In this document: piece by piece, positions 1,103-18,933 of the stretch
Layout of the letters: every line of letters begins with the position of its first letter
Numbering within the stretch: the first letter of the stretch is position 1
Origin: a virus
IMG/VR virus record: IMGVR_UViG_3300017956_000178
Coordinates: 1 to 20,508 of that record
Strand: one strand, 5' to 3'
Length of the DNA: 20,508 nucleotides
Translations under genes and position numbers: made by a program
Notes under the pieces: generated by a model
What the model saw: only the letters and a program-made list of their open reading frames with translations
Told to the model about the DNA's origin: nothing
Databases searched by the model: none

Positions 1103-1759
1103 ATGGCTAGATTATTTGTCGGACAAAGAGAAGTTGATTTTTTTGCAGATATTACAAAAGAAATTATTAAAGACGTTGCAGGTCAAAAAATATATTATTA
1201 TACAGTAAGAAATGATATATCTGAAGTGCATGAAATGTATGAAGAGTCGATAGATAAAATTTTTAATCCGCCTATTGAAATAGAATGTCTTGTTGAATGG
1301 CAACCTTCAGAAACAAAAACAACAAAATTTGGTACAGAATATATTAAAACATTAAGTATTTATATGCAATATAGAGACTTATTGGATAGAAATATTGACT
1401 TTAAGAAAGGTGACTATTTTTCTTATGGTTCTTATTTCTTTGAAGCTACATCAATAATTTATGATAAGCTAATTTATGGACAAATTGAAAGAATAGCGTC
1501 GATGAAAGTTACTGGGAAACAAACACGTCTTAATCAAATCAATGTTAGACCTCATGGACCTATTGATGAATGGTATTCAGACCAAGATGCAATTCAAACA
1601 ACATTTGAACAACAAAGAGGAACAAATGACGCTGATATAAGACGATTGAGAAAAGATGGTGTTTTAGAAGATCCTATTACAGGACCTAAAAAAGTTGCAC
1701 CTGATGGCACTGTTAAAAGTATCAACGGAATAGGATCTTCTTTTTATGGAGATGAATAA
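1103..1759 (+). CDS. gp14-like neck protein
   Basis: This 218-aa protein has a short N-terminal segment and a central part (about residues 98-145) with F-K-K-G-D-Y-F, a Y-F-F-E-A turn, then G-Q-I-E-R-I and a K-V-T-G-K-Q motif. The same order occurs in T4 gp14 (EGDLIYF, LFEI, GQNAIRKITAGKF). T4 gp14 (256 aa) builds the neck with gp13, and here it directly follows a gp13-like gene with a four-base gap. The start ATG is preceded by AGGA at 1092-1095, seven bases upstream, inside the end of the previous gene. The C-terminal tail (residues 170-218) is polar and rich in Gly, Asp and Lys, probably flexible. The call rests on weak sequence similarity plus strong position; a different head-tail connector is possible but less likely. 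Confidence 0.75.
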   Translation: MARLFVGQREVDFFADITKEIIKDVAGQKIYYYTVRNDISEVHEMYEESIDKIFNPPIEIECLVEWQPSETKTTKFGTEYIKTLSIYMQYRDLLDRNIDFKKGDYFSYGSYFFEATSIIYDKLIYGQIERIASMKVTGKQTRLNQINVRPHGPIDEWYSDQDAIQTTFEQQRGTNDADIRRLRKDGVLEDPITGPKKVAPDGTVKSINGIGSSFYGDE

Positions 1760-2982
1760 TGAGCACAAAGTTTAATTTAGATTCTAAAAACAGATATGCA
1801 CCAACAGGTTACGAAGGTGAGAACATACCTGATTATGTAATTCCATCATGCGGTTTAGAAGACTTAGATAAAGCTGTCTTTAATTTATTTGATAAAGATA
1901 TTCCTCTTTATTATATGCTGCAAGAAGAACAAAGAAAAATACCCGTTATATTTGCGACAGGTGAAAGATTTGCATTAATACAAAGAAAAGAGCCTATTAT
2001 TGACAGAAATGGTACTCACGTTTTACCACTTATATCTATAACTAGAAATAATATCGATCAAATTCCACAAAAAGGAATTGCTAATAATCAAATGTTTCCA
2101 CATGTCATAACAAAAAGAATTTCAGAAAAAGACCTGGCTTTTAGACAAAACAAAAATATAGAAAATCTTTCAAATATAAATGGTGAAGATTTACAAAATA
2201 ATGCTGATTTATCTTTAAAGCCAAGAATAGATAAAAACATAATCGAAACTATTGAAATGCCTCCTGTAAAATATTTTGGAGCAAGTTATGAGATTACAAT
2301 CTGGTCATCTTTTACGCAACAAATGAACGAAATATTAGAAACAATAATGAGTGCTTACACGCTTAATCCTGGTCATCAATTTAAAATAGAAAGTGACAAA
2401 GGATATTGGTTTAGCGCTTTTGTTGATTCTTCGCTAAGTCCAGATACAAATTATGCAGACTTTACAGATGCTGAGCGCTATATTAAATATAGCATGACAA
2501 TATCAGCAACAGGCTATATTATTTCTCCAAATATTTTAGGTGGAAAAACAGCACTAAGATCTTTTAGAAGTGCTGCTGAAGTTTCTTTTGAAGTTGCTAC
2601 AGACTTTGTTGATTTAGAACCAAGAAGCCTTGGCGGAGTAGTTGATTCGAATCCAGATGCACACATTTTAGATGATTTAGCAACAGAATATTCTTATATT
2701 CCTGCGCAAAGAATAGGTCAAAATAGCGCAAATAATATTAATGATTTGTTAGATACTGATTCTTCTAAAGGAAGCGCAATAAATAAAAACGAAAAAGATT
2801 ACACATCAGACTTTGTTGGAGCAAGAGGGTCTGACTATAAAAATAATAAAAAAGTTTTTATGAGAAATAGTGAAGGAAAATTAATTCCTGTTGGTGTTAA
2901 ATCAAGCAAAGGCAAAGGAGAAACTGTATATGATTCAAGATTTGCTGAGGTTTTGTTTAATATTTCAACAAATAAAGAATAA
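1759..2982 (+). CDS. gp15-like tail terminator / tail completion protein
   Basis: The protein is 407 aa. In T4, gp15 forms the hexamer that caps the finished sheath and tube and binds the neck. Shared features are K-I-P-V-I-F-A-T-G-E-R-F near residue 60 (T4 has RVPITYASKEHF), a LPLIS(I)TR segment near residue 95, and Y-E-I-T-I-W-S-S-F-T-Q-Q-M near residue 177 followed by an amphipathic helix (T4 has YELSIFTRYEDDM). The core ends near residue 255 (SATGYIISPN), while T4 gp15 is 272 aa. About 150 extra residues follow, polar and Lys/Asn-rich, with a short ordered-looking end (KVFMRNSEGK, YDSRFAEVLF). The ATG overlaps the upstream stop by one base (TAATG), with GGAG just upstream, so translation is probably coupled to the gp14-like gene. 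Confidence 0.8.
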   Translation: MSTKFNLDSKNRYAPTGYEGENIPDYVIPSCGLEDLDKAVFNLFDKDIPLYYMLQEEQRKIPVIFATGERFALIQRKEPIIDRNGTHVLPLISITRNNIDQIPQKGIANNQMFPHVITKRISEKDLAFRQNKNIENLSNINGEDLQNNADLSLKPRIDKNIIETIEMPPVKYFGASYEITIWSSFTQQMNEILETIMSAYTLNPGHQFKIESDKGYWFSAFVDSSLSPDTNYADFTDAERYIKYSMTISATGYIISPNILGGKTALRSFRSAAEVSFEVATDFVDLEPRSLGGVVDSNPDAHILDDLATEYSYIPAQRIGQNSANNINDLLDTDSSKGSAINKNEKDYTSDFVGARGSDYKNNKKVFMRNSEGKLIPVGVKSSKGKGETVYDSRFAEVLFNISTNKE

Positions 2983-3038: not shown

Positions 3039-6000
3039 ATGGCTGAACAGACATTTAAGTCTCCAGGGTTTTTTGAAAGAGAAATAGAAGTTATTTCTCG
3101 TCCTCTTTCACGAAATTTAAGCACCCCTGTAGGAGTTATTGGCCCGGCAGAAAAAGGACCAGCTTTTGTCCCGACAACAGTAACAAGTAGCGAAGAATTT
3201 ATTAGAATTTTTGGTGCCCCTGACCAAAATAGATCAGCAGCTCACTCTGTTGTTGAATACTTTGCAAATAGCGGCCGAGCTGCAACTTTTTGTAGAATAC
3301 TAGGAACAGGAACATCTTCAGCAAACGGAAGCGTTGGATACGCAGGCTTTAAAGTTCAAGGAACAGCAGAATCAGGAGATGATGCTGCAACTAGAGCACA
3401 TGGCGCTGTTCAGTTTATTGTTGCAGATCACTTAGTTAATAATGCAGAACATGTTACACTAGGTATCATTAATGACAACGATTCCATCACAACTCAAATG
3501 GATGAGGATCCGTCAGATAATGATCTTACTAATGATAATAAAACCGATAACCAAATACAATTAGTTCGTGCTATGATTTTTATGCACAAAGATTATACCT
3601 TGAGAATAGGACCTTCAGCGGACATTGCTGTTAATGATACAGCAACTTTATCTAATGATGGTTTATTTGATTTGCATATTGTAAAATCAGATGGTACTGT
3701 TGCTAAGTCATTTAGTGTTTCATTAGATCCAAGCAGTCCTTCTTATATTAGTAAAGTTTTAAATACAGATTCTTTTGCTTTTGATACAAAGTTTCACTTT
3801 TTATATGCAGACTTTCCGGTAGACGACCAAATTGCAACTGTTAATACTGCTAATGAATCTGTTGCTGTTGTTAGAGGTAATAATACTCACATGAATAACT
3901 TTGGAGACTTTTCTTCAAGATTCTCAGCGCCTCAAACAACTTCTTTTATTTCGCAACCTTTCGGTAAAACAGAATACGATCTATTTCATGTTGAATCATT
4001 AGACGATGGATCTTATGCTAGCAGCAAATATAAACTATCAATTGCTGACTTAAGAGCTTCAACAGAAAAAAATTATAAGTTTGGAACATTTACAGTTCAA
4101 TTAAGAGACTTGAAAGATACAGATGATAATCCTATTATTTATGAATCTTATAGCAGATGTAGTCTAGATCCAAATTCAAAAAACTTTGTTGCAAGAATGA
4201 TTGGTGATCAAAAAATTAAATTATCTTTAGATGTAGATGACGAAGACGAAAAGAGACTAGTAAGAGAGGGAACTTTCCCGAATAAATCAACAAGAGTTAG
4301 AGTCGTAATGTCAGATAGCGTACTTCGTGGTGAAGTTCCTGATGAAGCTCTTCCTTTTGGATTTAGAGGTATTCCTGCGCTAAGAACAACACCTGACGGT
4401 AAAGACGGAGGTGCAAATCAAGTTCCTTTTGTTACAGGAAAAGTCGTAGATATAACAGGTGCAGCTAATAAACTAGGCTCAGCAATATTACCTCCTTTGC
4501 CTTTTAGATCAAAAGTAACTCGCGGTGATATGAAAAATGCAAGTGGACAATATTTTCAAAAATATTTCGGTCAATCTTTGAATGACACCACAAGAGCAAA
4601 AATCACAAGCGAATCAGTCAAGACAAACTTCTATTGGGGTCTTTTCAATATGCAAGTAACTGATATTGATAATCCTAATAAAGAGTCTGACGTTTCTAGA
4701 TATTCAAGACTTACGGAAAATTTGTGTAAATTGCTTACAAATCATAGCACACTCAAGTTTGATGGAGCAGATGCTGACAAATTTAATAATAATAAGTTTA
4801 CTTTAGCAAAAGTTTCTTTTCCTTATGCAGATCTTGCCAGCGTAACAGGTTCTTCACTAGATGCATTTTTAGAAGCAGCTTATATTAGAAACGCTGATGT
4901 TGATGGACTAAATAATATGTATGACTCTGTTAATCATACAATTAATATGGCACACGCCAAAGATCCTTTTGATGCTGAAGATGCTGTCGAAGATAATTTT
5001 GATATTAGAGTAACAATGGCAAAAATGTTAAATGAAGATCCTGTTAAGTTTAACAAGTATAGTTTGATGGCCAAGTTTACAGCTCCTTTCTTTGGCGGTT
5101 TTGATGGCGTTAATATTCTTAATAGAGACTCTTTTTACTTTACAGATAGATCTTCTTCACAAGACGAAAATGGTCATGCAGCGCCAGGAGGATTTTCAAG
5201 CGGGTTAACTCTTACAAATTATTTTGCTGATCCTATGCAGGGTGAAAGATTAAATAATAATTCTGTAGTATCATACCAGAACGCTGTAAGATTAATGACA
5301 GATGAGTTAATTGTTGATACAAATATTTTAATTGTGCCAGGAATTAGAGAATCTTTAATTACAGACTTTGCTGCAAGAAGAGTAAAAGAGTATGGCAAAG
5401 CAATTTATCTGATGGATATACCTCATTACACAAGTTCTTCAGAGAGAATTTATGTTTCATCTAACGGTATTGCATCTGGTAGAGCTGATGTTGATGTTAC
5501 TTCATCTACATTTGATTTAAGAGAAGTTGATTCATCATATGTAGCAACATATTTCCCAGATGTTGTTATGATTGATAGAGGTGATGATGCAACAGCTTCT
5601 TTAACAAATCAAAGAACTGTTAGAGTTCCGTCATCTGTTGTTGCACTAGGTGCTATGGCTAAGTCAGATGCTGCTACAAGAAGTCCTTGGTTTGCGCCTG
5701 CAGGATTTTCTCGTGGAGCCTTAAGTTCTGTAAGGTCTACAGATGTAAGATTAAACGCAGCAGATCGTGATACACTCTATGAAGCAAGAATTAATCCTAT
5801 CGCAAACTTCCCCAATAATCAATTCGTAATTTTTGGTCAAAAGACATCACAAATTGCTAGAACATCTTTGGACAGAGTTAACGTAAGACGTCTTATGATT
5901 TACATTAAGCGTAGAATTCAAAAGATTGCACAAAGTCTTTTATTTGAGCAAAATGATTCTGTAACAAGAACTAGATTTATTGACGCTACTAGCGAAATTC

Positions 6001-6185
6001 TTCAGGCAGTACAGATTGGCCAAGGTATAGAGGACTATAGAGTTATAATGGATGATACAAACAATTCTGCTGAAGATGTTGATAACAATAGATTAAATGG
6101 ACAAATTATTGTTGTTCCGACCCGCGCTGTTGAGTTTATTGCAATGGACTTTGTAATTACAAATAGCGGCGTAGAATTCCCATAA
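3039..6185 (+). CDS. contractile tail sheath protein, paralog 1 (gp18-like)
   Basis: At 1048 aa this is much longer than T4 gp18 (659 aa). It opens with the usual sheath arm (SPGFFEREI), then V-I-G-P-A-E-K-G-P-A-F-V-P near residues 33-45. The sheath hallmark G-G-F-D-G-V-N lies near residue 686. Further on come PWFAPAGFSRG near residue 885 and FGQKT followed by LDRVNVRRL near 932-950. It ends with VEFIAMDFVITN, the strand that in contractile sheaths augments a neighbouring subunit. The extra length is a middle insertion (about residues 100-400) with two copies of an LDPxS-(Y/F)-(I/V) motif, likely surface domains. AGGAG sits nine bases before the ATG. It would polymerise around the tube and contract to drive injection. 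The family call is very safe; which copy is the major sheath is not known. Confidence 0.95.
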   Translation: MAEQTFKSPGFFEREIEVISRPLSRNLSTPVGVIGPAEKGPAFVPTTVTSSEEFIRIFGAPDQNRSAAHSVVEYFANSGRAATFCRILGTGTSSANGSVGYAGFKVQGTAESGDDAATRAHGAVQFIVADHLVNNAEHVTLGIINDNDSITTQMDEDPSDNDLTNDNKTDNQIQLVRAMIFMHKDYTLRIGPSADIAVNDTATLSNDGLFDLHIVKSDGTVAKSFSVSLDPSSPSYISKVLNTDSFAFDTKFHFLYADFPVDDQIATVNTANESVAVVRGNNTHMNNFGDFSSRFSAPQTTSFISQPFGKTEYDLFHVESLDDGSYASSKYKLSIADLRASTEKNYKFGTFTVQLRDLKDTDDNPIIYESYSRCSLDPNSKNFVARMIGDQKIKLSLDVDDEDEKRLVREGTFPNKSTRVRVVMSDSVLRGEVPDEALPFGFRGIPALRTTPDGKDGGANQVPFVTGKVVDITGAANKLGSAILPPLPFRSKVTRGDMKNASGQYFQKYFGQSLNDTTRAKITSESVKTNFYWGLFNMQVTDIDNPNKESDVSRYSRLTENLCKLLTNHSTLKFDGADADKFNNNKFTLAKVSFPYADLASVTGSSLDAFLEAAYIRNADVDGLNNMYDSVNHTINMAHAKDPFDAEDAVEDNFDIRVTMAKMLNEDPVKFNKYSLMAKFTAPFFGGFDGVNILNRDSFYFTDRSSSQDENGHAAPGGFSSGLTLTNYFADPMQGERLNNNSVVSYQNAVRLMTDELIVDTNILIVPGIRESLITDFAARRVKEYGKAIYLMDIPHYTSSSERIYVSSNGIASGRADVDVTSSTFDLREVDSSYVATYFPDVVMIDRGDDATASLTNQRTVRVPSSVVALGAMAKSDAATRSPWFAPAGFSRGALSSVRSTDVRLNAADRDTLYEARINPIANFPNNQFVIFGQKTSQIARTSLDRVNVRRLMIYIKRRIQKIAQSLLFEQNDSVTRTRFIDATSEILQAVQIGQGIEDYRVIMDDTNNSAEDVDNNRLNGQIIVVPTRAVEFIAMDFVITNSGVEFP

Positions 6186-6199
6186 GAAGTATAGTTATA

Positions 6200-6207
6200 G
6201 ATAAATG
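6200..6207 (+). promoter_or_regulatory. weak late-promoter-like box (GATAAATG)
   Basis: GATAAATG differs at two bases from TATAAATA and ends 22 bases before the second sheath start, within the 44-base gap between the two sheath genes. It is listed mainly because its position matches the other boxes; read-through from upstream could equally express this gene. Confidence 0.2.
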
Positions 6208-6229
6208 AATTTAACAGGAGAAATATAAT

Positions 6230-9200
6230 ATGGCTGGACAAGGCTCAGCGAGAGTAACACTACGTGAAATCGACTTATCACAAGTTAGAAATCCTCAAGA
6301 ACTGCCTCAAGGCGTTCCAGCTGCTGTTGTTGGCCCTGCGAGAAAAGGTCCAGCCTTTGTTCCGCAAACATTTGCCAATATGCAGCAGTTTAATGAAAAA
6401 TTTGGGTCAATGATTGAAAACAATAGAGAAAGCAACTCAAATCTATTCGCACCTCTAGCACTTAACGAATGGATGCGTAACTCCAAAGCAGGTACATATC
6501 TTAGAGTTTTAGGCGTAGGTAACGGTTTAAAAAGCGATAGCTACGGCAAAGTAGGTGAAGCTGGATTTGTTGTTGGTCAAGAATTAGTTCAAGAATCAAG
6601 CTCAGATGTAGGAAAAGTTAATAAAAATAAATGGGCAAACATCACAGATAATGATATATCAAGAGAGAAGGCAACAACAAATGCTAGAACTTATATGCTT
6701 GGCTGCTTTATGCAAGATGCTGTAGGATCTGACTTTCTTGCTGACGCTGGCGTTCAAATAACGCCTTCAGGAGCAAGAATTAGCAATCCAATAGTTGTAG
6801 ATAATACTGCACAAGCAGGTGACACAATACAAATACTTGTTCCACATGAAGTTTTAAGTGCAACAGATGACGAATCATTTACAAATCCTGCTAACACAGA
6901 TGTTACTTTGGTAATAAAGTTAGTTAATGCTTTAGCTAATGATATAACTACTCTAAACGATAATGAAATTGAAATATTATTTGATAATAATCAACACACT
7001 ATAGCTACTAGAATTAGAGCAGCTTTAGGTCACTTACTGTTGCAAGCTAAAACTGACGACTTTCAGTATAATAAATTATCTTTTAAACCTGGAAAAGTTT
7101 TTGGATCTTCTATTGGTGCAGCAGGAACTGCAACAATTACAGAATTAATTCTAAGAACAAATATTTCTGAAGGTAGTAATGTAACGATAAGTCAAACAGT
7201 AGGTGCAGGCAATAAAGCAACATTAATGAATGTTAATGAAGCTGCAAATGCACTGAACCCATATACGAGAAGCTTTTCTGATGCTTCAAAAGCAGCACCT
7301 ATTATAAGAGGAATGCTAATGGCTCCCCAAGGTGTTGTTATAACAATGGAGCCTAATTCTAATTTAGGTGATTATACGCATGCATCTGTTGCAACTGACA
7401 CTCAAATAAGAAGTGAAGTTAATGCTAAAACTTTTGGGAATGATGAGGATGCAAATTTAATTGGGTATATGATAGGCGACGTTGATTTAACAGACCAGTC
7501 ATTTAAACTAATTCTTAACGGTTTTTCAAATACTAACAAGCCTGCAGTAATTACATGTTCTTTTGATCCAGACTCTACGACTTATATATCAAAAGTTTTA
7601 AATACAGACCCGACCAAAATTGAAGAGTTTGGTCACTATTTATACTTGCATTTAGATGTAGATAAAAATGTTGCAGTTCCTTCAAACGATGGTCTTGAAA
7701 GAGATGGTGCACAATTAGCAGGGAATTATGCAAACATGATAGGCTTCTTGCTTACAGGTGCAAAAGGTCATGCTGATAGTGATCCTTCGCAGCCTGATTA
7801 CGAAAGCTTTGATACAAGATTTAAAACAGCTAGTTCTCCTTGGATTGTTTCTCAGTTTTATTCAGGAAGTGATTCTGCTTTAAGACCTGATACAGCATCA
7901 GCAGGAAGTGCTTATAAACTATTTAAATTGCATGCGCTTGATGATGGTGAAATAGGTAATTCTCAATTTAGAGTTTTAGTGAGCAATTTAAGATATGTAA
8001 GTAGCACAGAGTTTGGATCTTTTGATTTAACCCTTGAAGCTTTTGATTCAGATCCTATCGCGGGTGAAGCTCTTGCAAGTTGGAAAAATCTTACTTTGGA
8101 TCCAAATAGCAGAAACTTTATTGGTCGTGTTATTGGTGATAAGCACACATATTTTGACTTTGACAGAGATCTAAACAAACAAAGACTTGTTGAAGAAGGT
8201 TTATATGAAGTTAGAAATAATTTTGTAAGAGTAGAACTTTCAAGTGATCTAGTTTCTGAAAATGTACCTGTTGATGCATTGCCATCGGGTTTCCAAAGTT
8301 TAACGCACTTGCATACAGCAACTGATCCTACACATGCTGTAAAGAATTTTGTTGAAGATGCTGGTGGAGCTTTGGCTGCAGGTAATCATGTCTTTAAAAA
8401 CACTGACAATTCAAAGCAAAGCATTTTAAATGAAGCAGTAACTTTGCCTGTTGACTATGTTAAATCAATCAATAGAATGGTCGCATCAGAAGAAGAAGCT
8501 GATTCTATTTTGCCTTGGGGTGTTAAGCTATCTGTAAGAGAAAATGGTGATGCTGAGAACAAAGAGCTAGTTGAGCAAGTATTTAATAAAGCAGTTTATA
8601 GTTTGACAAAATATTTGCCTGCGTTAGATGCAAACCCTGCGTCACTTTCTGGTGACGATGCTGATGGTTTCCAAAAATCAATGTTTTCTTTAGAGAAGGT
8701 GCATATTCCTTCTGCAAGTCTAGATAGTGATGTTATTAGTACTTGGAATGGCGCTAAATATGTTAAGGGTGGTGGTGATAATCCATTAGATCTAGATAGT
8801 GGTTCAAGATTTGTTAATATTTCTAAGGACGCAAAAGGCGGAAATTCAAAGTATCTTAAGTTCCGTTGTATAATGCAGGGTGGTTTTGATGGTGTTAATA
8901 TTTTTGACAAAGAAAAGGCTTCATTATCTGGTGTTGCATCTCTTAGAGAAGGTGCAGATGAAACAGGAACACAGAAGTTTACAGGACCTACTGTTTCTTC
9001 ATATCAAAGAGCAATTGATGTTTTAAGTGACAAATCAGCAACTGAATTTCAGGTTTTAGCTATTCCTGGACAAAGAACTGCAGAAGTTACAAATTATGCA
9101 ATTGATGCTTGTGAAGATAGGTTTGATGCATTGTTTGTAATGGATATTGAGCCAGTTGATGGTAGCACAATTTTGATTGAAGATGATCTTAGAAAGCCAA

Positions 9201-9868
9201 GTGTTCGTCAGACGATAAAGAATTTTGAGAATAGAGCATTAAATACATCTTTTGCAGCTGCATATTTCCCAGATGTTTTGATGAGAAGACCATCAGATCG
9301 TGCACCAATTGTTGTGCCTCCTTCAGTTGGAATGATGGGAGTAATGAGTCGTAATGATGCAATTGCTGATCCTTGGTTTGCTCCTGCTGGTTTAAATAGA
9401 GGTAGACTAAGCGCTATTGACTCAAACTTGCAGATGAATCGTGATCTTCTTGACGAGTTGTATGATGCAGATATTAATCCAATTTATGTTCCTGCAGGAC
9501 GTCCTGGTGAGGTTTATGCGTTTGGACAAAAAACTTTATTGCAAGACCAATCAGCTCTTGACAGAATTAACGTAAGACGTCTTTTGATTAACATTCGTAG
9601 AAGAGTTAGAAAAATTGCTGAATCGTTATTGTTTGAGCCTAATAGAGAATCTACATTGGTTAGATTTAATAATCTAGTAGAACCTATTATGGCAGATGTT
9701 CAACAACGTCGTGGTGTTACACGTTATAAAGTACAGATTGATACAACAACAACGACACAAAACGATATTGAGAACAATACAATTCGTGGCAAGATTTATT
9801 TGCAACCTACAAAGTCCGTAGAATTTATTTCTCTTGACTTTGTTGTGACAAATACGATTCAAGATTAA
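6230..9868 (+). CDS. contractile tail sheath protein, paralog 2 (gp18-like)
   Basis: This 1212-aa protein shares the order of paralog 1: V-G-P-A-R-K-G-P-A-F-V-P near residues 34-46, L-D-D-G near 570, T-L-D-P-N-S at about 622-627, G-G-F-D-G-V-N near 884, FAPAGLNRG near 1050, FGQKT and LDRINVRRL near 1098-1120, and a final VEFISLDFVVTN strand. All core sheath motifs are kept, so it should be able to polymerise. It is about 160 residues longer than paralog 1, mostly in the middle insertion (residues 100-560), and the first LDP-type motif (SFDPDS) is near residue 444. AGGAG precedes the ATG by nine bases, as for paralog 1 and the tube gene. It may form a mixed sheath with paralog 1, or a separate zone of the tail; the sequence cannot decide. 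Confidence 0.95.
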   Translation: MAGQGSARVTLREIDLSQVRNPQELPQGVPAAVVGPARKGPAFVPQTFANMQQFNEKFGSMIENNRESNSNLFAPLALNEWMRNSKAGTYLRVLGVGNGLKSDSYGKVGEAGFVVGQELVQESSSDVGKVNKNKWANITDNDISREKATTNARTYMLGCFMQDAVGSDFLADAGVQITPSGARISNPIVVDNTAQAGDTIQILVPHEVLSATDDESFTNPANTDVTLVIKLVNALANDITTLNDNEIEILFDNNQHTIATRIRAALGHLLLQAKTDDFQYNKLSFKPGKVFGSSIGAAGTATITELILRTNISEGSNVTISQTVGAGNKATLMNVNEAANALNPYTRSFSDASKAAPIIRGMLMAPQGVVITMEPNSNLGDYTHASVATDTQIRSEVNAKTFGNDEDANLIGYMIGDVDLTDQSFKLILNGFSNTNKPAVITCSFDPDSTTYISKVLNTDPTKIEEFGHYLYLHLDVDKNVAVPSNDGLERDGAQLAGNYANMIGFLLTGAKGHADSDPSQPDYESFDTRFKTASSPWIVSQFYSGSDSALRPDTASAGSAYKLFKLHALDDGEIGNSQFRVLVSNLRYVSSTEFGSFDLTLEAFDSDPIAGEALASWKNLTLDPNSRNFIGRVIGDKHTYFDFDRDLNKQRLVEEGLYEVRNNFVRVELSSDLVSENVPVDALPSGFQSLTHLHTATDPTHAVKNFVEDAGGALAAGNHVFKNTDNSKQSILNEAVTLPVDYVKSINRMVASEEEADSILPWGVKLSVRENGDAENKELVEQVFNKAVYSLTKYLPALDANPASLSGDDADGFQKSMFSLEKVHIPSASLDSDVISTWNGAKYVKGGGDNPLDLDSGSRFVNISKDAKGGNSKYLKFRCIMQGGFDGVNIFDKEKASLSGVASLREGADETGTQKFTGPTVSSYQRAIDVLSDKSATEFQVLAIPGQRTAEVTNYAIDACEDRFDALFVMDIEPVDGSTILIEDDLRKPSVRQTIKNFENRALNTSFAAAYFPDVLMRRPSDRAPIVVPPSVGMMGVMSRNDAIADPWFAPAGLNRGRLSAIDSNLQMNRDLLDELYDADINPIYVPAGRPGEVYAFGQKTLLQDQSALDRINVRRLLINIRRRVRKIAESLLFEPNRESTLVRFNNLVEPIMADVQQRRGVTRYKVQIDTTTTTQNDIENNTIRGKIYLQPTKSVEFISLDFVVTNTIQD

Positions 9869-9883
9869 AACAAATTAGATATA

Positions 9884-9891
9884 TATAAATA
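9884..9891 (+). promoter_or_regulatory. candidate T4-type late promoter (exact TATAAATA)
   Basis: This is an exact match to the T4 late promoter -10 octamer, in the 43-base gap before the tube gene and ending 20 bases before its ATG. It is part of a longer GATATATATAA element (from 9878) that recurs before the third sheath gene. T4 late promoters have this octamer and no -35 box, and are read with gp55/gp33/gp45; whether this phage has those factors cannot be seen here. Confidence 0.6.
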
Positions 9892-9911
9892 AGAACTAGG
9901 AGTAGAACAAC

Positions 9912-10400
9912 ATGGCAGAGACACTATCAGTCGCAGAAATGATACCAAATAAATTTGAACCGAAAAGAAAAAATCGCTGGATTTTTGCTATCGAAGGTAT
10001 TGATGCATTTTTAATTAAAACAGCTGCTAGACCATCATATACTACTAATGAAACAGCAATTCCTTTTATTAATAGTACAAGATATTTAGCAGGTAAAACT
10101 ACATTTGACACTATGTCAGTAACATTGCATGATCCAATTGCACCATCAGGCGCACAACAGGTTATGGAATGGGTACGTACACACTTTGAGTCAGTAAGTG
10201 GTCGTGCTGGTTACGCTGATTTTTATAAGCGTGATTGCCAACTTAAATTACTTGACCCTGTAGGTACTGTAGTTGAGCTTTGGGATATTAAAGGCGCTTT
10301 CTTGACGCAAGCTGGTTTTGGTGATCTTTCTTATGACGGTGATGAGCCTCAAGAAATTTCATTAACATTACGCTACGACAACTGCGTTCTTCAATACTAA
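9912..10400 (+). CDS. tail tube protein (gp19-like)
   Basis: At 162 aa it matches T4 gp19 (163 aa) closely in size. The fold signature of T4-type tube proteins is visible: an N-terminal N-R-W-I-F-A-I-E-G-I strand after a PxKFEPKRK lead, a central T-F-D-T-M-S-V-T-L-H-D-P-I-A loop near residues 63-77, a W-x-x-x-H-F helix region, and the end I-S-L-T-L-R-Y-D-N-C-V-L. Gp19 stacks as hexameric rings to form the inner conduit, with the sheath outside. It follows two sheath genes, as gp19 follows gp18 in T4. AGGAG stands nine bases before the ATG, an exact TATAAATA lies upstream, and a strong hairpin terminator lies just downstream, consistent with a separately controlled, highly expressed gene. It is the only tube gene in the window, although there are three sheath genes. 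Confidence 0.92.
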   Translation: MAETLSVAEMIPNKFEPKRKNRWIFAIEGIDAFLIKTAARPSYTTNETAIPFINSTRYLAGKTTFDTMSVTLHDPIAPSGAQQVMEWVRTHFESVSGRAGYADFYKRDCQLKLLDPVGTVVELWDIKGAFLTQAGFGDLSYDGDEPQEISLTLRYDNCVLQY

Positions 10401-10421
10401 TTAACAAAAGCTAAAAATTTT

Positions 10422-10470
10422 AAAACTCGCGTAATTCTTGTTGTTCTACAACTGCGCGAGTTTTATTGTA
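10422..10470 (+). terminator. rho-independent terminator after the tube gene
   Basis: A 10-bp perfect inverted repeat, AAAACTCGCG (10422-10431) and CGCGAGTTTT (10455-10464), has a six-pair GC-rich core. Its 23-base loop contains a smaller hairpin, GTTGT-TCT-ACAAC (10440-10452). The right arm runs into TTTTATTGTATTT. It stands 21 bases after the tube stop codon, so it should end transcripts carrying sheath and tube. The A-run before the left arm means it could also work on the reverse strand, although no reverse gene is seen. Confidence 0.85.
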
Positions 10471-10479
10471 TTTGATATA

Positions 10480-10487
10480 TATAATTA
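10480..10487 (+). promoter_or_regulatory. candidate late promoter box (TATAATTA) before third sheath gene
   Basis: TATAATTA lies after the terminator and ends 23 bases before the third sheath start. It sits in GATATATATAA (from 10474), identical over 11 bases to the element before the tube gene. Because the terminator would block read-through, a promoter is expected here. Confidence 0.35.
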
Positions 10488-10510
10488 GAATTTATTCATA
10501 AAGGCTAAGT

Positions 10511-13500
10511 ATGTCAAATAACTTATTTAACAGCGAAGTAGCAGTAAGATTAGGCTCTTCAATAAATGACAGTGCAATAAATCTTTTTCAAACGCTAGAA
10601 GGAAGAACATTATGCGTTTTAGGCCCTTCACACAAGGGAAAAGCTTTTGTTCCAACAAATATAACTAATACTGAAACTTTAGATGTAGCTGGAACAACTT
10701 TTAAAGTTGCTAATAGTTTAGACAATAAACTAGGTAACGCAAGAAGTAATAGACATAGACATATTAAAGATTCACTATCTTGTTACACAGAAAGTCAAAG
10801 CTATGATGCAATAAAAACATGGCTTGACAACGGCGGAGATCAATCAACATTTATTAGACTTCTTGGAATAGGCAGCGGAAAAAAGTCAATAGAAGGAAAT
10901 TACACTGGCGCAGGATTTAATGCTGAAGGAATTGTTTCTCAAAATTCTGAAGATAATTTAACAAAATCAAATAATCCATTTGTTGAAACACCTATAACAG
11001 TTTCAGGAAACGTTAGTTTTATTTTACAAAAGTTTATTAATAATCAATCAGGTTATTTAGAAGACTTAGGGCTTAATACTGCTAATAATAACTATTTTAT
11101 AACTAGCACAATAATATCTGCACAAGGCGTATTACCTTCATTACTTGTTAACGAAGGCACACCTTTAACAACTAATGACTCGATTGAAGCAGCTTCATAT
11201 AATAATCAAGTAAGATCATCATCGACAATAAATCCTAAAATATTGTTATTAGGATTAAATTCTGGATTTGTTACAGGCACTGAAAATACTCGACTTTTAA
11301 ATGTTTCAAATGAGTTTGTTATTAATAATGATTTAACTGTTTTGCAATCATCTAATAGGTATAGCGATTTCTTCTTAGAAAAAGGTCATATTAAATACGC
11401 AGAGTTTACGTCGTCTGGTTTCTTGAGGTCAGATAACGATATAAAGATTATTACCACACGAAACTTTAGCACTTTAAACAATAGCAATCTTCCTGATTAT
11501 AACTCTTTTGAAAACAAATACCAGACAGCAAAAACACCTTGGGTAACCAGTCAGCCTATTGATAGAAATGGATTGTTAAATACTAGAGAAAATATACAAA
11601 CAAAAGTTGTTAATTTATTTAAGTTTCATGCATTAGACGACGGAGAAGTTGGTAATAGATTTAGAATTAAAATAAATCCTTTAACAAGAGGCAACATTGA
11701 TGAGAACACTTATGCTACTTTTGAAATATACATTTTTGAGTATGATCCAAGAGATAATACTTTTACACAAGTTGATCATAAGCAAGAAGTAAATCTTAAT
11801 CCAGACAGCCCAAATTATATTGCACGTTTGTTTGGAGATGAAAACACTTATTATCATATTGAAAGTAATAAAACTGTAACAGAGCTTAAATATGAAACAC
11901 GAAATTTATATCTAAGAGTTGAAGTAGATCAAGACGTTGAAAATAAAAAAATAAGATGTGACTTAATACCTTCAGGTTTTAGAGCATACCCGCATATTAG
12001 AATTAATCCAAACTGCTTTTTAGATTATAATGATCTAAACTTAGACTTTAACAATGTATACCAAATGCCAATTCATTACACTAATGCTGAATTAAATGAT
12101 AATATAATGTCTGATATTAGTGCATCTATACAAAATTCTTGGGGAGTTTTATTTAATTCTTACAAAAAGCTTAGTGACAGCAATAATGTAGAAGTTTTTA
12201 AAGATTACTTGGATGAGTATATATCGCCTTTTTACTATTATACAAAATATTTTTTGCATGACTTAAACACAGAATCTAAAAACATATGGGTCGAAGATGA
12301 CAGCTATTTAAACTCATTTTTTCATTTAGAAAAGATATATCATAACGGCACTTTTGATAATTTAAAATATACAAGAAAAGCTGCAGAAGGTAATACGTAT
12401 TTAAACTTAGATGACAATAGTCTATGGGTTGAAGATGATAAAACGCTAGTAGCAAAACTTCAAGATAAACTTTCGTTTGACTTCTTTACTTATGGTGGGT
12501 TTGATGGCGTTGACATAAGAGATACAGACAAGAAGTTTTTTACAAATACGGCGCTTATAAGAGAAGAGCATTTAGAAGATAGCAATATTAGTCTTAGAGA
12601 TAATCCAACAATTAAAGCATATTTGACTGCAATAGATGTTGTTAAAAATAGAGAATTAAACCTAGATTATTTGTTATTACCTGGTGTGAGTAATAAAGTA
12701 TTAACTAGAGAAATAATAGACTACGCTGAAGATGAAAAAGATTTTTTGTTTATTAGCGATGTATTTAGTTATTCTGATACTATTACAGATGGATTATTAA
12801 TTGAAGAAACTAATGACAATATAACAAATAAGTTAAAAAGTAATTTTTCTGTAACTTTAGTTAAAAATAAATTATCTGATTACATCAAAGACGCAGAGGA
12901 ATTTACTGACATTAATATATTTCCTACAGAAAGTAAAGATAATAACAATATTATATTTAGCAATACAATTAGTTATTTACAAAGTTTAGGATTAAATAGT
13001 AAATATGCTTTTTATACATTTGGGTCTTTAAAGGCATCAGATGCTGATGATAATATTAAATTATTAGATCCTTCAATTTTTGTAATTAAAAAAATTGCTC
13101 AAGATTTAGGAAATATTACACAACCTCTAACTGTAAGTGAAACAATTAATAACTATAGTAGTTTAAAAATACTTCAACCGGGATTGAATAATTCAGATGT
13201 AAACTGGGAAAGTAATAAAAAACTATTTAGAAGCAATTTATTAAATCCTTTATATTATAGTTCAAATAAAATTATTAATTTAGATTCACAAGTTACATCA
13301 TATGAGCAAAGACTTTCAAGTTTTAGTTTGTTTAGTATAGTAAATAATTTACTAAAAGTTAAAAAAGAAGTTAAGTTAGCTCTTTTGACGCAAAGCGTGC
13401 CTGGATCTTTATTTAGAGGAGGACCTTTGTTTTTTAATCAAAATAGTAGTCAGTCTAATTTATATCTAAATATAAAATTAATGATAAATAATATATTAGA

Positions 13501-13726
13501 TAATTTAGTTAACAATGGAGTAATTGTAGGTTATAATGTTATAATACCTAATAGATTAGATGATAGAATTATACTAGATGCTGAACGTAATATTTTTAGA
13601 GGAACTATTAATTTAGAATTTAACAATAATATAAAAATTAATAATCTAAGAATAGATGATATATTATACGAATATAGTTTAATAGAAACTTCTAATCTAA
13701 ATAGAATACAAGCGCCGCAAATCTAA
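10511..13726 (+). CDS. diverged third tail sheath paralog
   Basis: The 1071-aa protein keeps the sheath N-terminal signature L-G-P-S-H-K-G-K-A-F-V-P near residues 34-46, FIRLLGIGSG near 115, F-H-A-L-D-D-G-E-V-G-N near 372, N-L-N-P-D-S-P-N-Y-I-A-R near 428, and G-G-F-D-G-V-D near 662. In the LDDG region it is closer to paralog 2 (PW-(I/V)-x-SQ, LFK-(L/F)-HALDDGE) than to paralog 1. The two best-conserved C-terminal sheath motifs, PWFAPAG and LDR(V/I)NVRRL, are not recognisable; that region is rich in Asn, Leu, Ile and Lys. A weak version of the terminal strand remains (RGTINLEF). The frame is fully open, so it is not a plain pseudogene. The ribosome site is weaker (AAGG, six bases before ATG), suggesting lower output. 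It could be a minor sheath, for example a baseplate- or neck-proximal ring. Confidence 0.85.
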   Translation: MSNNLFNSEVAVRLGSSINDSAINLFQTLEGRTLCVLGPSHKGKAFVPTNITNTETLDVAGTTFKVANSLDNKLGNARSNRHRHIKDSLSCYTESQSYDAIKTWLDNGGDQSTFIRLLGIGSGKKSIEGNYTGAGFNAEGIVSQNSEDNLTKSNNPFVETPITVSGNVSFILQKFINNQSGYLEDLGLNTANNNYFITSTIISAQGVLPSLLVNEGTPLTTNDSIEAASYNNQVRSSSTINPKILLLGLNSGFVTGTENTRLLNVSNEFVINNDLTVLQSSNRYSDFFLEKGHIKYAEFTSSGFLRSDNDIKIITTRNFSTLNNSNLPDYNSFENKYQTAKTPWVTSQPIDRNGLLNTRENIQTKVVNLFKFHALDDGEVGNRFRIKINPLTRGNIDENTYATFEIYIFEYDPRDNTFTQVDHKQEVNLNPDSPNYIARLFGDENTYYHIESNKTVTELKYETRNLYLRVEVDQDVENKKIRCDLIPSGFRAYPHIRINPNCFLDYNDLNLDFNNVYQMPIHYTNAELNDNIMSDISASIQNSWGVLFNSYKKLSDSNNVEVFKDYLDEYISPFYYYTKYFLHDLNTESKNIWVEDDSYLNSFFHLEKIYHNGTFDNLKYTRKAAEGNTYLNLDDNSLWVEDDKTLVAKLQDKLSFDFFTYGGFDGVDIRDTDKKFFTNTALIREEHLEDSNISLRDNPTIKAYLTAIDVVKNRELNLDYLLLPGVSNKVLTREIIDYAEDEKDFLFISDVFSYSDTITDGLLIEETNDNITNKLKSNFSVTLVKNKLSDYIKDAEEFTDINIFPTESKDNNNIIFSNTISYLQSLGLNSKYAFYTFGSLKASDADDNIKLLDPSIFVIKKIAQDLGNITQPLTVSETINNYSSLKILQPGLNNSDVNWESNKKLFRSNLLNPLYYSSNKIINLDSQVTSYEQRLSSFSLFSIVNNLLKVKKEVKLALLTQSVPGSLFRGGPLFFNQNSSQSNLYLNIKLMINNILDNLVNNGVIVGYNVIIPNRLDDRIILDAERNIFRGTINLEFNNNIKINNLRIDDILYEYSLIETSNLNRIQAPQI

Positions 13727-13741
13727 GGAGAATAGATAAGA

Positions 13742-14587
13742 ATGAATGATTTAGATACACCGATTAATCCTGACCAAATTAGAAGAGATGGTCCTATCCA
13801 AGTTTCAAATGTAATGAAAGACGATTTTGGATTTGAAATTCCAGCTGAAAGTGTGCCATTACCTTCTAGAGGTATTATTTATCCGGACGATGGTATATTG
13901 CATGGTCAAGATACAGTAGACATTAAGCCAATGACAGCAAAAGAAGAAGACATTCTTACAAGTCGCGCATATATTAAAAGTGGAACTGTTTTAACAAAGC
14001 TTTTAGAATCATGTATTATTGATAAAAGAATTAAACCAGACACATTAATTTCAGGTGATAGAAATGCTTTGCTTGTTTCTTTAAGAATTACTGGATACGG
14101 TGCAGATTATGATGTTGAAGTTGATTGTCCAGAATGTGGAATTAAGAGCAAGCAATCATTTGATTTATCGCAACTAGAAATTAAAAGATTAGAAGTTGAG
14201 CCTGTTGAAAGAGGTCAAAATTTATTTGAAGTTAAGCTTCCAGTAACAAAAAAGAATGTAAGAGTTAAATTTTTAACAGGTTCTGATGAACGTGATATGA
14301 TGATTACTTCTGAAAGAAGAAAAAAGAGTGGCATGAAGATTGAATCTGCTATTACAGACAGGTTATCTAGATCAGTAGTTTCAGTTGATGGTATTACAGA
14401 TAAAAACAAGCTAAACTTTTTTGTTAAAAGTCTACCTGCTAGAGATTCTTTAGCTTTACGAAGGTTCTTAGACAAGCACGAGCCGGGAATTATCATGAAG
14501 TCATGGATGAATTGTACACATTGTCATGAGCAAAGTGAGGTAGGTCTTCCTATGGGTGCCGCATTTTTTTGGCCTGACACCGAATGA
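13742..14587 (+). CDS. gp26/gp51-type baseplate hub / tail assembly protein
   Basis: This 281-aa protein resembles the T4 gp26/gp51 family (Pfam T4_baseplate). It has the family opening P-L-P-S-R-G-I-I-Y near residues 39-48, then D-I-K-P-M-T-A-K-E-E-D-I-L-T near 60-73. Two CxxC pairs follow: Cys129/Cys132 in DCPECG and Cys258/Cys261 in CTHC. These four cysteines could bind one zinc. It ends with AAFFWPDTE. T4 gp26 and gp51 act in assembly of the baseplate hub. Here the gene sits between the sheath genes and the tape-measure-like genes, the usual place of tail assembly chaperones, which in many phages make a longer form by frameshifting. A second frame overlaps its end on a T7 run (next entries). 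AAGGAG overlaps the upstream stop, 11 bases before ATG. Confidence 0.78.
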   Translation: MNDLDTPINPDQIRRDGPIQVSNVMKDDFGFEIPAESVPLPSRGIIYPDDGILHGQDTVDIKPMTAKEEDILTSRAYIKSGTVLTKLLESCIIDKRIKPDTLISGDRNALLVSLRITGYGADYDVEVDCPECGIKSKQSFDLSQLEIKRLEVEPVERGQNLFEVKLPVTKKNVRVKFLTGSDERDMMITSERRKKSGMKIESAITDRLSRSVVSVDGITDKNKLNFFVKSLPARDSLALRRFLDKHEPGIIMKSWMNCTHCHEQSEVGLPMGAAFFWPDTE

Positions 14588-14801
14588 TAAAGATCTATAT
14601 TTAGAACAAATATTTGCTTTAGTATACCATCTTGGATTTACCTATAAAGATGCTTATAGTTGTCCTGTTTGGCAAAGATTTTGGTTTATAGGTAGATTAA
14701 AAAAGGAGTTCGAAGAAGCAAAACAGCAGCAATCTCAAGCCTATTCAACATCACAAAGAAATACAAGTGGTGGAAGATCTTTTAGGAAGTCTTTTGGCTG
14801 A
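14556..14801 (+). CDS. frameshift extension of the gp26-like protein (tail assembly chaperone C-part)
   Basis: This frame is open from 14544 (after TAG at 14541) to the stop at 14799-14801. The only possible start is GTG at 14556, inside the previous gene and without a well-placed ribosome site; there is no ATG in the frame. The peptide therefore most likely begins at the T7 slip site and is made as a fusion to the gp26-like protein. Its sequence (D-L-Y-L-E-Q-I-F-A-L-V-Y-H-L-G-F-T-Y-K-D, then C-P-V-W-Q-R-F-W-F-I-G-R-L-K-K-E) looks like the short helical protein that often follows gp26-like genes in T4 relatives, with a Gln/Ser-rich basic tail. In lambda-type phages the equivalent T domain recruits the tape measure and tube subunits. 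Independent translation by re-initiation is possible. Confidence 0.6.
   Translation: MPHFFGLTPNDKDLYLEQIFALVYHLGFTYKDAYSCPVWQRFWFIGRLKKEFEEAKQQQSQAYSTSQRNTSGGRSFRKSFG
14564..14572 (+). other. candidate programmed frameshift site (T7 followed by GG)
   Basis: In the gp26-like frame the codons read GCA TTT TTT TGG. A +1 slip lets both Phe tRNAs re-pair perfectly with TTT TTT (65-70 of the local numbering, i.e. 14565-14570), with Trp TGG waiting in the A site; reading then continues GGC CTG ACA. A -2 slip reaches the same frame but pairs worse (CAT TTT). The product would be 276 codons of the first gene plus 76 of the second, 352 aa. A GAGG element at 14537-14540 lies upstream but too far away to act like the prfB stimulator. 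A homopolymer sequencing error is the main rival explanation. Confidence 0.5.
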
Positions 14802-15093: not shown

Positions 15094-18000
15094 ATGGCTG
15101 AGTCTTTAGAGTTACAAGTTCAATATTCGCAACAGCTAATTAAATCTTTAGACTCTATTATTGACAATGCTGATACAATTGATCAAGGTTTTCAGCAGCA
15201 ATTAAGAATCTCTCAAAGTCTTAACGAATCTTTAATTAGATTTAGCAATAGATACGAAAACATGTCAAATAGCTTTGCTGATGCAGCCAATAAAATGCAA
15301 AAAGCTTTTGGCAATAATATTATACCAGAACAAGCAAGACTCGAAAAAGACTTAGAAAAGTCTTCAAAGAAGGCAAAAGAAAACGCAGAAGGTGCTAAAT
15401 CGGTTTCACAACAGCTTGCTGATGATACAAATAAACGTACAGATCTTAATAAAAGCCAGACAGAAATGGCTAAACAAAGAGACAAATCAACTAAACAATA
15501 TTCTTATAATTCAAAGTTATGGTTAGTAACAGACGCCATATTTGGTTATGTTGGAAAAAAATCAAAAGAGATATCTGATGGCTTTATGAATTTAGACATT
15601 GTTAAAAGAGCAATTAGCTCTGGAGGCTGGTCATTAGTTATTGACATACCTAAAATGATTGTAATGGGATTATTTAAAGTTATAGGCTCTGTTATTGGGT
15701 TAGTATCTAATTTTTTTAAGATGTCTATATCATTGCCTTTTATGGTTGCTGCTAAAGCTGTAGAGATAGGAAATGCTTTTAGACAAGACATTATAGAAAC
15801 AATTGGTAATGCACACCAGGCGACAAGAGAATATTCTGATGCGAATTCTATGATCGGCAAAGGTATTGCAAAAATGCATAATATTGCTGTAGGTTCGCTT
15901 AAAACATTTGAAAATCCTAGATCTTTAATGGTAAAAATGTTTGGTGAAGGTGCAGCTGGTGCTGCTGCATTTCTATCAGAAATATCTAAAGCAATTGATG
16001 ATATGGGAACTGTTGCTGAAACTATTGGTCCACAAGTTACAAATGGATCAAAAAGTGCAGAATATCTATTAGTTGCAATGAGAACGCTTGGAATTAACAG
16101 CAAAGATCTTTCTTATTACGCTTTAGATACAAGTGTTAGAGTTGGTAATATAGCTACAACTTTAGATAATGTAAGAGCCGCAACAGAACAGGCAGCTAAT
16201 ATGTTTGATGTAGATACAAAGCAAGTGTTACAAGGTTTTCATAAATTGAGAACAAACATAAAAGACTTTGGACATTTATCAGATCAAAATTTAGCAAACA
16301 CAGTTGCAAGAATGCGTCAATTAAACGTAGGTGCTGAAGATCTTGTTAATATATTTAATAAGTTTACTTCTTTTGATGAAGCAGCAAAAACTTCAGCAAT
16401 GTTATATCAATCTTTTGGAATGAGTATTGATTCTTTAGACTTGCTAACTGCAAGAGATCCTGGCGAAATTGTAGAAAAATTTAGAGACGCTATGTTTGCA
16501 ACAGGAAGAGATTATCAAGATCTAAATAGACATGAAAAACAATTAATGCAAACAACAACAGGCATGTCAGACGCAATGCTCAAGTCTTTAATGACATATC
16601 AAAACATGGGTCTTACTTATTCTGAAGCAAAACAAAAAATTGCAAATGATAATCCTACAAAAAAACAAATAAAAGCAATTAAAAGCTTGACATCTTCTAT
16701 AAAACAAATTCAAAAAGTTATGACTTTTAAATCTCCTTTTGAAGCATTTTTAAAAGGTTTAATGAAAAACAGTGTGTCAAGTAAAAAAGTAGTAAAAGTA
16801 GCAAAAAGCTTAAGCTCTATGTATGAGTCAATATACTTGTTTGGTTTAAACTTAGATAAATCTGCAATATCAGCAATTACTAAGCCTATTATTATGATTG
16901 TACAAAAAGTTGATACTATATTTAAAAGTCAACAATTCAAAGATTCAATTTTTCAAGCAACAAAAATTGTTTCTAGTGTAGTTGGATTTGTATCACCACA
17001 AAAGTTTAAGAGTGAAAATAGAAAAAAAGTTGATAATATTTTAAATGTCTTAAAAACAACAGAAACAGCGCAACTTGACTCTGATTATGTTAAAAGAGCT
17101 AAACTTAGAGAAAAAACTAAATTAGCTCTAAAAATAATGACTACAAACAAAGAAACAAATAAACTACTTAAAGAAAGAAACCTATTAGATACAAAAAATA
17201 ATAAAAAGCTTTCCTTAGATGTAGCTTTAAAACATATAAGAGAAATCGCTAGCGAAGTTAAATCAATAAAAGGTAAAGAAGCAATGAACAATATCATTGA
17301 TGATTTACAAACAAACACATTTAATATTTTTGGTGACATTATAGCTTCGAACGAATATAAAGAAAATTCAGGCATTGCTGGGCAAGTTAAAAGAACTTCA
17401 GAAGATATGAAAAATTTGTTTAGGCAAGGCGGCGGATTATTTTCTGATATATTTTATCTTGGTGGAAAAATTATGGGAAGTATAATAAAAGGTGCTGCAA
17501 TTACTGTATCAGTATTTTTTAATTTGCTGACCTCTACACTTGATTCTACAGATAATCCTAACAGTCCTTTAATGAAGTCTTTACGACAACTTGGTTTTGA
17601 TATCAATAAAGACTTTTCTATTTTAGACTGGCTTGGAATATCAAAAAAAGAACATGAAGATTTAGTAAAAGAATTATCTTCAGCATGGACAGGATTTACA
17701 TGGGAGTCACATAGAATATTTGCAGCAGGAAGCTTAGTAGTAAAAGAACTAGCTTCAATGTTTACAAGCCTTGCATACTCTATGGTTGGTGCTTTTGCTA
17801 ATATGTTAGTTACAGGAATAGACAGCTTAGATTTGCATGAAAAAGTAATAATAGAATCTCTTTTAGGGACCAAAAGAATGCAAAATCTTAGAGACGCTGC
17901 AACAATAAAGACATTTGATAAAAGTAACGTATCAAATGTAACTCTAGCAATTACAACTGCTAAAAAACAATCACAAAGTAGTGCTGCAAGGGGCATTTTT

Positions 18001-18933
18001 GGTTCTGGTGTAGGAGCAGAATTTATTTTAGGCGAAAAAGCTGCACAAGAAAAGTTTGATCAAATAAAAAGTTCGCTTAAAAAAGATTTAGGTGACGATT
18101 TGTTTAAAAAAGGTAATCCTTATTATGATCAATTTACAGAAACAGAAGATAATTTTAACAAAATCAAAGCTACGAATTATATGCTCGATCAAGATGAGAA
18201 AAAATATCACATGGCAATATTAATGACAGATGCTATGAGAAAACATAAAATACTAAGCGAAATTATTCCTCCAGGAGACTTAAGAAATACTATAGAAGGA
18301 ATAGATGAAAAAACATATGACAATAAAAACAAGAGAGATATATACAAAGGTTTATCAAAATCGAAGGTTATAAACAATCTTTACGCAACAATAAATAAAT
18401 CTTTTAAAGCTAAATATATACCAAAAAATTATGTTGAAGAACAAATGGATTATCCAAGAGGCTGGGGAACTCTTGGAATGTTTAGCGAAGATGCTGCTAA
18501 TAAAAACTACATAAGAGCATTAAATGCAATTAAAGATAATTATAATAATTCACCAAGTATAACTAGCAAAACTTATTTAGAAAATTTGCAGACCAATCTA
18601 GATAAAAGAACAGACAAAGTTCAAGATGGCGGTTTATCGTCAATACTTGCAAATGATGGATTAAAGTTATTTACTGAAGATGGTAAAGTTATTGTACCTC
18701 ATACGATGGATGAATTAATAAATCTTTCAGGTGATGATAAGGCTAGCTTGGTTAGCGTTTTTGCTAATATTGGATCAACATATGCACAGGTATCAAAAGC
18801 AATTACTACTATAAATGAGATTAAAAAAGAAAAGAAGAAGAAAGCTTCTATAAAAAAGTTAGTTGATAAAGCACTTCAAGTTATTGAAGTTTACAATGAA
18901 AAAATTGAAAACAGCAAAGTAGAGTTTGTATAA
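15094..18933 (+). CDS. tape-measure-like large tail protein, paralog A
   Basis: This 1279-aa protein follows the assembly-chaperone genes, the standard place for a tape measure. Residues 1-140 are Gln/Ser/Lys-rich and predicted helical or coiled-coil. A hydrophobic belt runs from about residue 178 to 225, with S-N-F-F-K at 205-209. An Ala-rich helical core follows, with FGEGA at 283, HLSD at 394 and ATGR at 469. A second hydrophobic zone lies near 796-816 and a third near 880-915. Long helices plus internal hydrophobic belts are usual for tape measures, which span the tube lumen and leave ahead of the DNA. It is about twice the length of T4 gp29 (590 aa). Direct similarity to gp29 was not seen. 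GGAG precedes ATG by eight bases. The main alternative is another large virion protein. Confidence 0.65.
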   Translation: MAESLELQVQYSQQLIKSLDSIIDNADTIDQGFQQQLRISQSLNESLIRFSNRYENMSNSFADAANKMQKAFGNNIIPEQARLEKDLEKSSKKAKENAEGAKSVSQQLADDTNKRTDLNKSQTEMAKQRDKSTKQYSYNSKLWLVTDAIFGYVGKKSKEISDGFMNLDIVKRAISSGGWSLVIDIPKMIVMGLFKVIGSVIGLVSNFFKMSISLPFMVAAKAVEIGNAFRQDIIETIGNAHQATREYSDANSMIGKGIAKMHNIAVGSLKTFENPRSLMVKMFGEGAAGAAAFLSEISKAIDDMGTVAETIGPQVTNGSKSAEYLLVAMRTLGINSKDLSYYALDTSVRVGNIATTLDNVRAATEQAANMFDVDTKQVLQGFHKLRTNIKDFGHLSDQNLANTVARMRQLNVGAEDLVNIFNKFTSFDEAAKTSAMLYQSFGMSIDSLDLLTARDPGEIVEKFRDAMFATGRDYQDLNRHEKQLMQTTTGMSDAMLKSLMTYQNMGLTYSEAKQKIANDNPTKKQIKAIKSLTSSIKQIQKVMTFKSPFEAFLKGLMKNSVSSKKVVKVAKSLSSMYESIYLFGLNLDKSAISAITKPIIMIVQKVDTIFKSQQFKDSIFQATKIVSSVVGFVSPQKFKSENRKKVDNILNVLKTTETAQLDSDYVKRAKLREKTKLALKIMTTNKETNKLLKERNLLDTKNNKKLSLDVALKHIREIASEVKSIKGKEAMNNIIDDLQTNTFNIFGDIIASNEYKENSGIAGQVKRTSEDMKNLFRQGGGLFSDIFYLGGKIMGSIIKGAAITVSVFFNLLTSTLDSTDNPNSPLMKSLRQLGFDINKDFSILDWLGISKKEHEDLVKELSSAWTGFTWESHRIFAAGSLVVKELASMFTSLAYSMVGAFANMLVTGIDSLDLHEKVIIESLLGTKRMQNLRDAATIKTFDKSNVSNVTLAITTAKKQSQSSAARGIFGSGVGAEFILGEKAAQEKFDQIKSSLKKDLGDDLFKKGNPYYDQFTETEDNFNKIKATNYMLDQDEKKYHMAILMTDAMRKHKILSEIIPPGDLRNTIEGIDEKTYDNKNKRDIYKGLSKSKVINNLYATINKSFKAKYIPKNYVEEQMDYPRGWGTLGMFSEDAANKNYIRALNAIKDNYNNSPSITSKTYLENLQTNLDKRTDKVQDGGLSSILANDGLKLFTEDGKVIVPHTMDELINLSGDDKASLVSVFANIGSTYAQVSKAITTINEIKKEKKKKASIKKLVDKALQVIEVYNEKIENSKVEFV

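Follow-up and report, generated by a model that had tools for sequence, protein, structure and literature searches.

What would a contractile phage tail do with three sheath genes grouped around one tube gene? The question is raised by IMG/VR record IMGVR_UViG_3300017956_000178 from an uncultured, marine, T4-like virus, the whole of which (20,508 bases; hereafter the window) was analysed. On its plus strand, it encodes the sheath paralogs S1 (1048 amino acids (aa), positions 3039..6185) and S2 (1212 aa, 6230..9868, the first half of which contains a large variable insert), the tail tube protein (162 aa, 9912..10400) and a third, divergent sheath paralog, S3 (1071 aa, 10511..13726). A first-pass annotation of this DNA had described the order as sheath, sheath, tube, terminator, sheath, which the open reading frames (ORFs) at these positions and a hairpin at 10421..10465 bear out, and had suggested that the tail may have a mixed or zoned sheath. 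The reading we favour, with a probability of roughly one half, is that of a two-component trunk made of S1 and S2, complemented by a scarce, specialised S3 sheath whose place is probably close to the baseplate.

That S1 and S2 match known sheath families is evident from curated profiles: S1 hits PF17482 (E 1.5e-10) and PF04984 (1.1e-7) and S2 hits PF17482 (4.8e-7), all exceeding the gathering score, and phrog_23 matches both (3e-55 and 6e-47, respectively). Besides, an S1 profile matches T4 gp18 at 8e-46. The S3 protein of the window found no match in Pfam or PHROGs, and none of 11 S3 members matched the Pfam sheath families. The motifs that had been noticed at first sight (GP(A/S)xKGxAFVP, LDDG and GGFDGV) are present in all three aligned proteins, and the homology extends well beyond them, with BLASTP E values of 2e-84 between S1 and S2, 3e-43 between S2 and S3, and 5e-13 between S1 and S3. 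Compared with the S2 profile, a profile of the 11 S3 members aligned across 893 columns at E 4e-104 (hhalign); the C-terminal part of S3 alone scored 5e-19 against the S2 core and 4e-16 against the S1 core, as opposed to E > 0.1 for four unrelated tail or neck profiles used as a control. The AlphaFold (AF2) model of S3 (predicted local distance difference test (pLDDT) 76, predicted template modelling score 0.84; residues 1-17 of low confidence) retrieved T4 gp18 as its top match in a fold search (E 7e-10), and its best 46 PDB matches were sheath proteins with no exception. Likewise, the best 50 PDB matches of the S2 model (residues 13-1212; pLDDT 82) were all sheath proteins (best E 1.4e-16). 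Since the alignment behind the S3 model contained S1 and S2 rows, cleaner evidence on S3 comes from the sequence comparisons. Because of the profile-profile match to S2 and the predicted fold, we assign S3 to the sheath relatives, as judged by detectable homology and a predicted sheath fold. The idea that S3 might be an unrelated protein with shared short motifs is ruled out by the profile comparisons, the C-terminal control test and the fold search.

Searches seeded with S1, S2 and S3 yielded > 200 loci, some of which are overlapping pieces of one contig; because of both the seeding and the overlaps, locus counts should not be taken as natural frequencies. Complete from gp15 to hub were 17 loci of the type gp15-S1-S2-tube-S3-hub, 37 of the type gp15-S1-S2-tube-hub and 13 of the type gp15-S-tube-hub, plus one locus (L043) whose copy in the S3 position scored S2-like, yet groups with S3 in the tree. 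The gene order was constant in 17/17 complete three-sheath loci, and their origin from several metagenomes rules out an assembly artefact. Full-length S3 was found in > 40 loci, and among contigs reaching far enough there was no locus of the three-sheath clade without S3. Thirteen longer contigs of relatives (77-369 kb, all possibly incomplete) contained no sheath gene outside the cluster, and a Gp23 capsid gene was present in four of the five long relatives searched; the window itself has phage neck genes. The three-sheath set is a trait of this lineage, and since three known or predicted sheath folds coincide with a set that is fixed across free phages, we consider the suggested mixed or zoned sheath most likely.

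A tree of 219 sheaths contains an S1 clade and a clade of S2 together with S3, both with a support of 1.0 and a few outliers aside, and S3 is itself one clade (support 1.0). FastTree nests S3 inside S2, beside the S2 proteins of three-sheath loci (0.87). IQ-TREE runs (unfinished and without support values) nearly agree with this for the middle region, yet place S3 as sister to all S2 when the whole protein is used. Because of this discrepancy, we limit the placement to the S2 side, where S3 branches in these sequence trees, and claim no finer position. In a tree without AFP and PVC sheaths, the paralogs of the window group with single-sheath phages. Two further sheath pairs fall outside the S1 and S2+S3 clades, which suggests that they stem from separate duplications, namely two outlying sheaths of locus L180 and those of the 484-kb huge phage LR756508.1 (L096; 10777-13251 and 14266-16740, with no tube gene until 24072). 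Two other loci, L054 (from 11594) and L055 (from 7161), carry a third, S2-like gene directly 3' of S2, with the contigs ending within that gene. S2 seems to gain variable domains, its length ranging from ~960 to 1783 aa across loci, with the longest forms in three-sheath loci. Sheath ORFs are also found split (S2 of L190 into 791+424 aa, S1 of L160 into 946+97 aa), by frameshift, intron or assembly error.

The three paralogs are not equivalent, and this inequality is an addition to the first-pass annotation. For the same eight loci, the mean patristic distance was 0.72 for S1, 0.75 for S2 and 2.10 for S3; that is, S3 evolves about three times faster than S1 and S2, whose rates are equal. S1, S2 and the single-sheath proteins have 69 conserved positions in common. 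Taking as kept those shared by at least 70% of S3 members, S3 keeps 6/11 in the N-terminal part, 18/21 in the middle domains and only 8/37 in the C-terminal core. Absent from its C-terminal core are the WxAPAG loop, GQK and LDRxNVR; the GGFDG region and the middle domains are nearly unchanged. The conserved sheath core, composed of the N- and C-terminal parts, is believed to touch the tube and to drive assembly (PMC9230969), and S1 and S2 retain this core. The ratio of nonsynonymous to synonymous substitution rates is 0.11-0.20 for S3 (pairs of S1 or of S2 mostly give 0.05-0.10, a few S2 values being as high as 0.31), which argues that S3 is under purifying selection and has been retained. The GC content of S3 was lower than that of S2 in 51/51 loci, many from overlapping contigs, and since third-position GC is similar to S2, this AT-richness mostly reflects amino-acid make-up.

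Given such losses, S3 could once have been a sheath and have lost the ability to polymerise with the others, acting instead as an outer decoration, as part of the neck or collar or as a helper in assembly, in which case the sheath would consist of S1 and S2 alone. The poorly kept C-terminal core, the low-confidence residues at the N-terminus and the fast evolution would all fit. However, middle domains and GGFDG region have hardly changed, and the sheath character of the C-terminal core can still be recognised. We regard this alternative as rather unlikely.

S3 differs from its neighbours in the signals preceding its gene. In three-sheath loci, AGGAG is found before 100% of the S1, S2 and tube genes vs 3% of the S3 genes (n=37), and the predicted ribosome pairing is -7.0, -7.2 and -7.1 kcal/mol for S1, S2 and tube, respectively, vs -4.0 kcal/mol for S3 (p <= 2e-6, a nominal value since the sequences are related). 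In the window, the tube gene has its AGGAG at 9898..9902 and S3 the weak ribosome site AAAGG at 10500..10504. The 110-nucleotide spacer between tube and S3 folds with a minimum free energy of -22.8 (z -3.1) and includes the terminator-like hairpin at 10421..10465, which is absent from the output of a simple consensus terminator scan, separates tube and S3 in the subclade of the window and recurs in L011-L015 with altered stem letters. Downstream of this hairpin, GATATATATAATTA (10474..10487), a putative promoter-like element, is invariant in 7/7 near relatives within an otherwise variable spacer. Upstream of the tube gene, TATAAATA (9884..9891) matches the T4-type late promoter and might function as such; it is exact in 3/6 near relatives (window included) and has one mismatch in the other 3/6. 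Family-wide, exact TATAAATA occurs 7 times before tube vs 1.5 expected, and 4 times vs 1.7 before S3, counted over related sequences; as a promoter it is suggestive, and not clearly enriched across the whole family.

Another subclade has a shorter tube-S3 spacer that ends in a long hairpin (z -3.3 to -6.0), the 3' arm of which covers the S3 ribosome-site region and ends at, or a few bases from, the ATG. In eight of these spacers, 6/16 pairs changed on both sides with pairing kept, and 90.6% of cells pair, compared with 42-56% for partners shifted by 1-3 columns. The long hairpin lies at 18049-18127 in L045 and likewise upstream of S3 in L040, L146, L179, L130, L133, L124, L143, L126, L078 and L137. 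Terminator-like hairpins 3' of the tube gene were also present in some two-sheath loci, which suggests that S3 joined the hub operon as its first gene and not the trunk operon.

We picture a free phage of the T4 superfamily with a heteromeric contractile sheath. S1 and S2, descending from an old duplication, would both build the trunk around the tube and both be able to contract; they look like joint trunk components because their cores are intact and they are alike in rate and ribosome site. Their arrangement could be one mixed lattice, or alternating or neighbouring zones. S3, the divergent S2-side copy, would be made in small amounts and, with its inner face changed, fill a special place. 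Our best guess is the baseplate-proximal start of the sheath, the position of Afp4 in AFP. S3 sits 3' of the terminator-like hairpin and 5' of the hub and tape-measure genes, and it is because of these hub and tape-measure neighbours and the AFP parallel that we place it at the baseplate end. Several points weigh against this picture: the phage is known here from genes and not from particles, a low protein level does not necessarily follow from a weak ribosome site, the loss of conserved core positions could mean that S3 lies outside the lattice altogether, neighbouring genes say little about location, and the S1 and S2 rows may have pulled the S3 model towards the sheath fold.

A different division would confine S1 and S2 to different stretches of the trunk (e.g. 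head-proximal and baseplate-proximal), with S3 as a third zone. The gene order does parallel the tail axis, in that S1 adjoins gp15, S2 the tube gene and S3 the hub gene. In T4-like phages, however, gene order generally does not track virion position, and an equal mixture would explain just as well why S1 and S2 are alike in rate and ribosome site; we deem such a zoned trunk unlikely. Less credible still is a mixed sheath whose trunk contains S1, S2 and S3 in a fixed ratio: a sheath fold is known or predicted for all three and their genes co-occur, but S3 stands apart by its ribosome site, the context of its transcription, its rate and its core residues. That the copies are redundant or decaying and have no separate roles, for which the fast evolution and AT-richness of S3 might be cited, is very improbable in light of the purifying selection on S3, its full length in so many loci and its presence throughout the far-reaching contigs of the clade.

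The parallel to the contractile injection systems AFP (Afp2-4) and PVC (Pvc2-4), drawn in the first-pass annotation, holds in kind, as there, too, three sheath paralogs per machine are encoded together. Afp2 and Afp3 are found in five AFP entries of the PDB (trunk, cap and baseplate among them), Afp4 in two only, 6rao (baseplate) and 6rgl, and the PVC baseplate entry, 6j0n, is the only one to contain Pvc3 and Pvc4. Judged by this PDB content, AFP has two trunk proteins and one end protein, comparable to the layout proposed for S1/S2 and S3. Kinship, however, finds no support: AFP and PVC are without capsid genes, unlike the lineage with its neck genes and Gp23 capsids; their gene order is another one; and S1-S3 group with the single-sheath phages. 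Sheath number also varies among injection systems, AlgoCIS having one and PVC/AFP several (PMC8894135).

Among free phages, some encode two sheath proteins according to a survey (PMC9230969). Pseudomonas phage PaBG and the 'Lupandier' group are credited with two sheath proteins that arose via duplication and share 38% identity (Kurochkina 2018, cited in PMC7412058), and gp76 and gp213 of PaBG are both listed among the virion bands (PMC7412058). PaBG thus resembles the present case as a free phage with duplicated sheath paralogs, a duplication seen here at the gene level. However, its two genes (numbers 76 and 213) are far apart, their products are ~58 kDa and it belongs to another phage group, whereas here the sheath genes flank one tube gene and a third, divergent copy is present. 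Our literature search, mostly without subscription journals, retrieved no report of a phage with three sheaths, and the Far-T4 paper (PMC4360716), which probably deals with a neighbouring group, does not mention the sheath. Multiple sheath genes as such have precedents (two in PaBG, three in AFP/PVC). With T4, the lineage shares the gp15, gp18 and gp19 families in order and, in relatives, Gp23-family capsids; T4 has one sheath of 659 aa, though, vs three of 1048-1212 aa here. Among named phages, none turned out to be a close relative, the nearest being Microcystis phage Mel-JY01, Flavobacterium phage immuto and Rhodothermus phage RM378 (matched parts ~32-36% identical to S1). Mel-JY01 and immuto share the sheath-tube-hub order with the window, but all three have a single sheath gene.

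Phage sheaths are usually described as one repeated protein. As single-, double- and triple-sheath relatives share their gene order, one can trace within a single family how a uniform sheath becomes, step by step, a specialised one, and a division of labour as in AFP may have evolved twice. The system would also allow a direct test of how far a contractile lattice tolerates unequal subunits and of how lattice composition is dosed. The idea of a zoned sheath is plausible, and the analysis refines it to two trunk partners and a scarce, altered copy with dosage-limiting signals. A more far-reaching proposal, which we put forward tentatively and would give somewhat less than even odds, is that this free phage lineage has a zoned three-protein sheath, evolved independently of AFP/PVC, in which S3, specific to one end, is kept at low copy number by RNA structure, i.e. 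by a terminator in one subclade and by a covarying hairpin that buries the ribosome site in another.

As for the remaining window, all listed genes lie on the plus strand, in the order neck protein, a 218-aa neighbour, gp15-like, S1, S2, tube, S3, hub, two small ORFs and two tape-measure-like paralogs. The gp15-like tail sheath terminator (1759..2982) matches PF16724 (E 1.7e-5, just under the curated cut-off) and phrog_227, and its gene is immediately 5' of S1 in loci whose left flank is included. The tube protein matches PF06841 (3.8e-5, under the curated cut-off) and phrog_4542 (1e-28), and the first gene 3' of S3 encodes a hub protein of the T4_baseplate family (13742..14587; PF12322, 5e-19; phrog_150). 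Host assignment was attempted and abandoned, as contig matches were mostly to metagenome bins with conflicting labels (Flavobacteriales, Methylococcaceae, Halobacteriovorax). An 81-aa ORF at 14556-14801 overlaps the hub gene, is constant in position across the family and has a weak DUF6760 match (E 0.002, under cut-off). The tape-measure-like paralogs are adjacent (15094-18933 and 18933-20508) and share 42% identity over 325 aa. This duplication is present in the subclade of the window (L013, L015, L099, L101, L104, L114); in L115, L121, L127, L132, L135 and L137, one tape-measure-like gene was recognised, followed by a protein of 855-949 aa.

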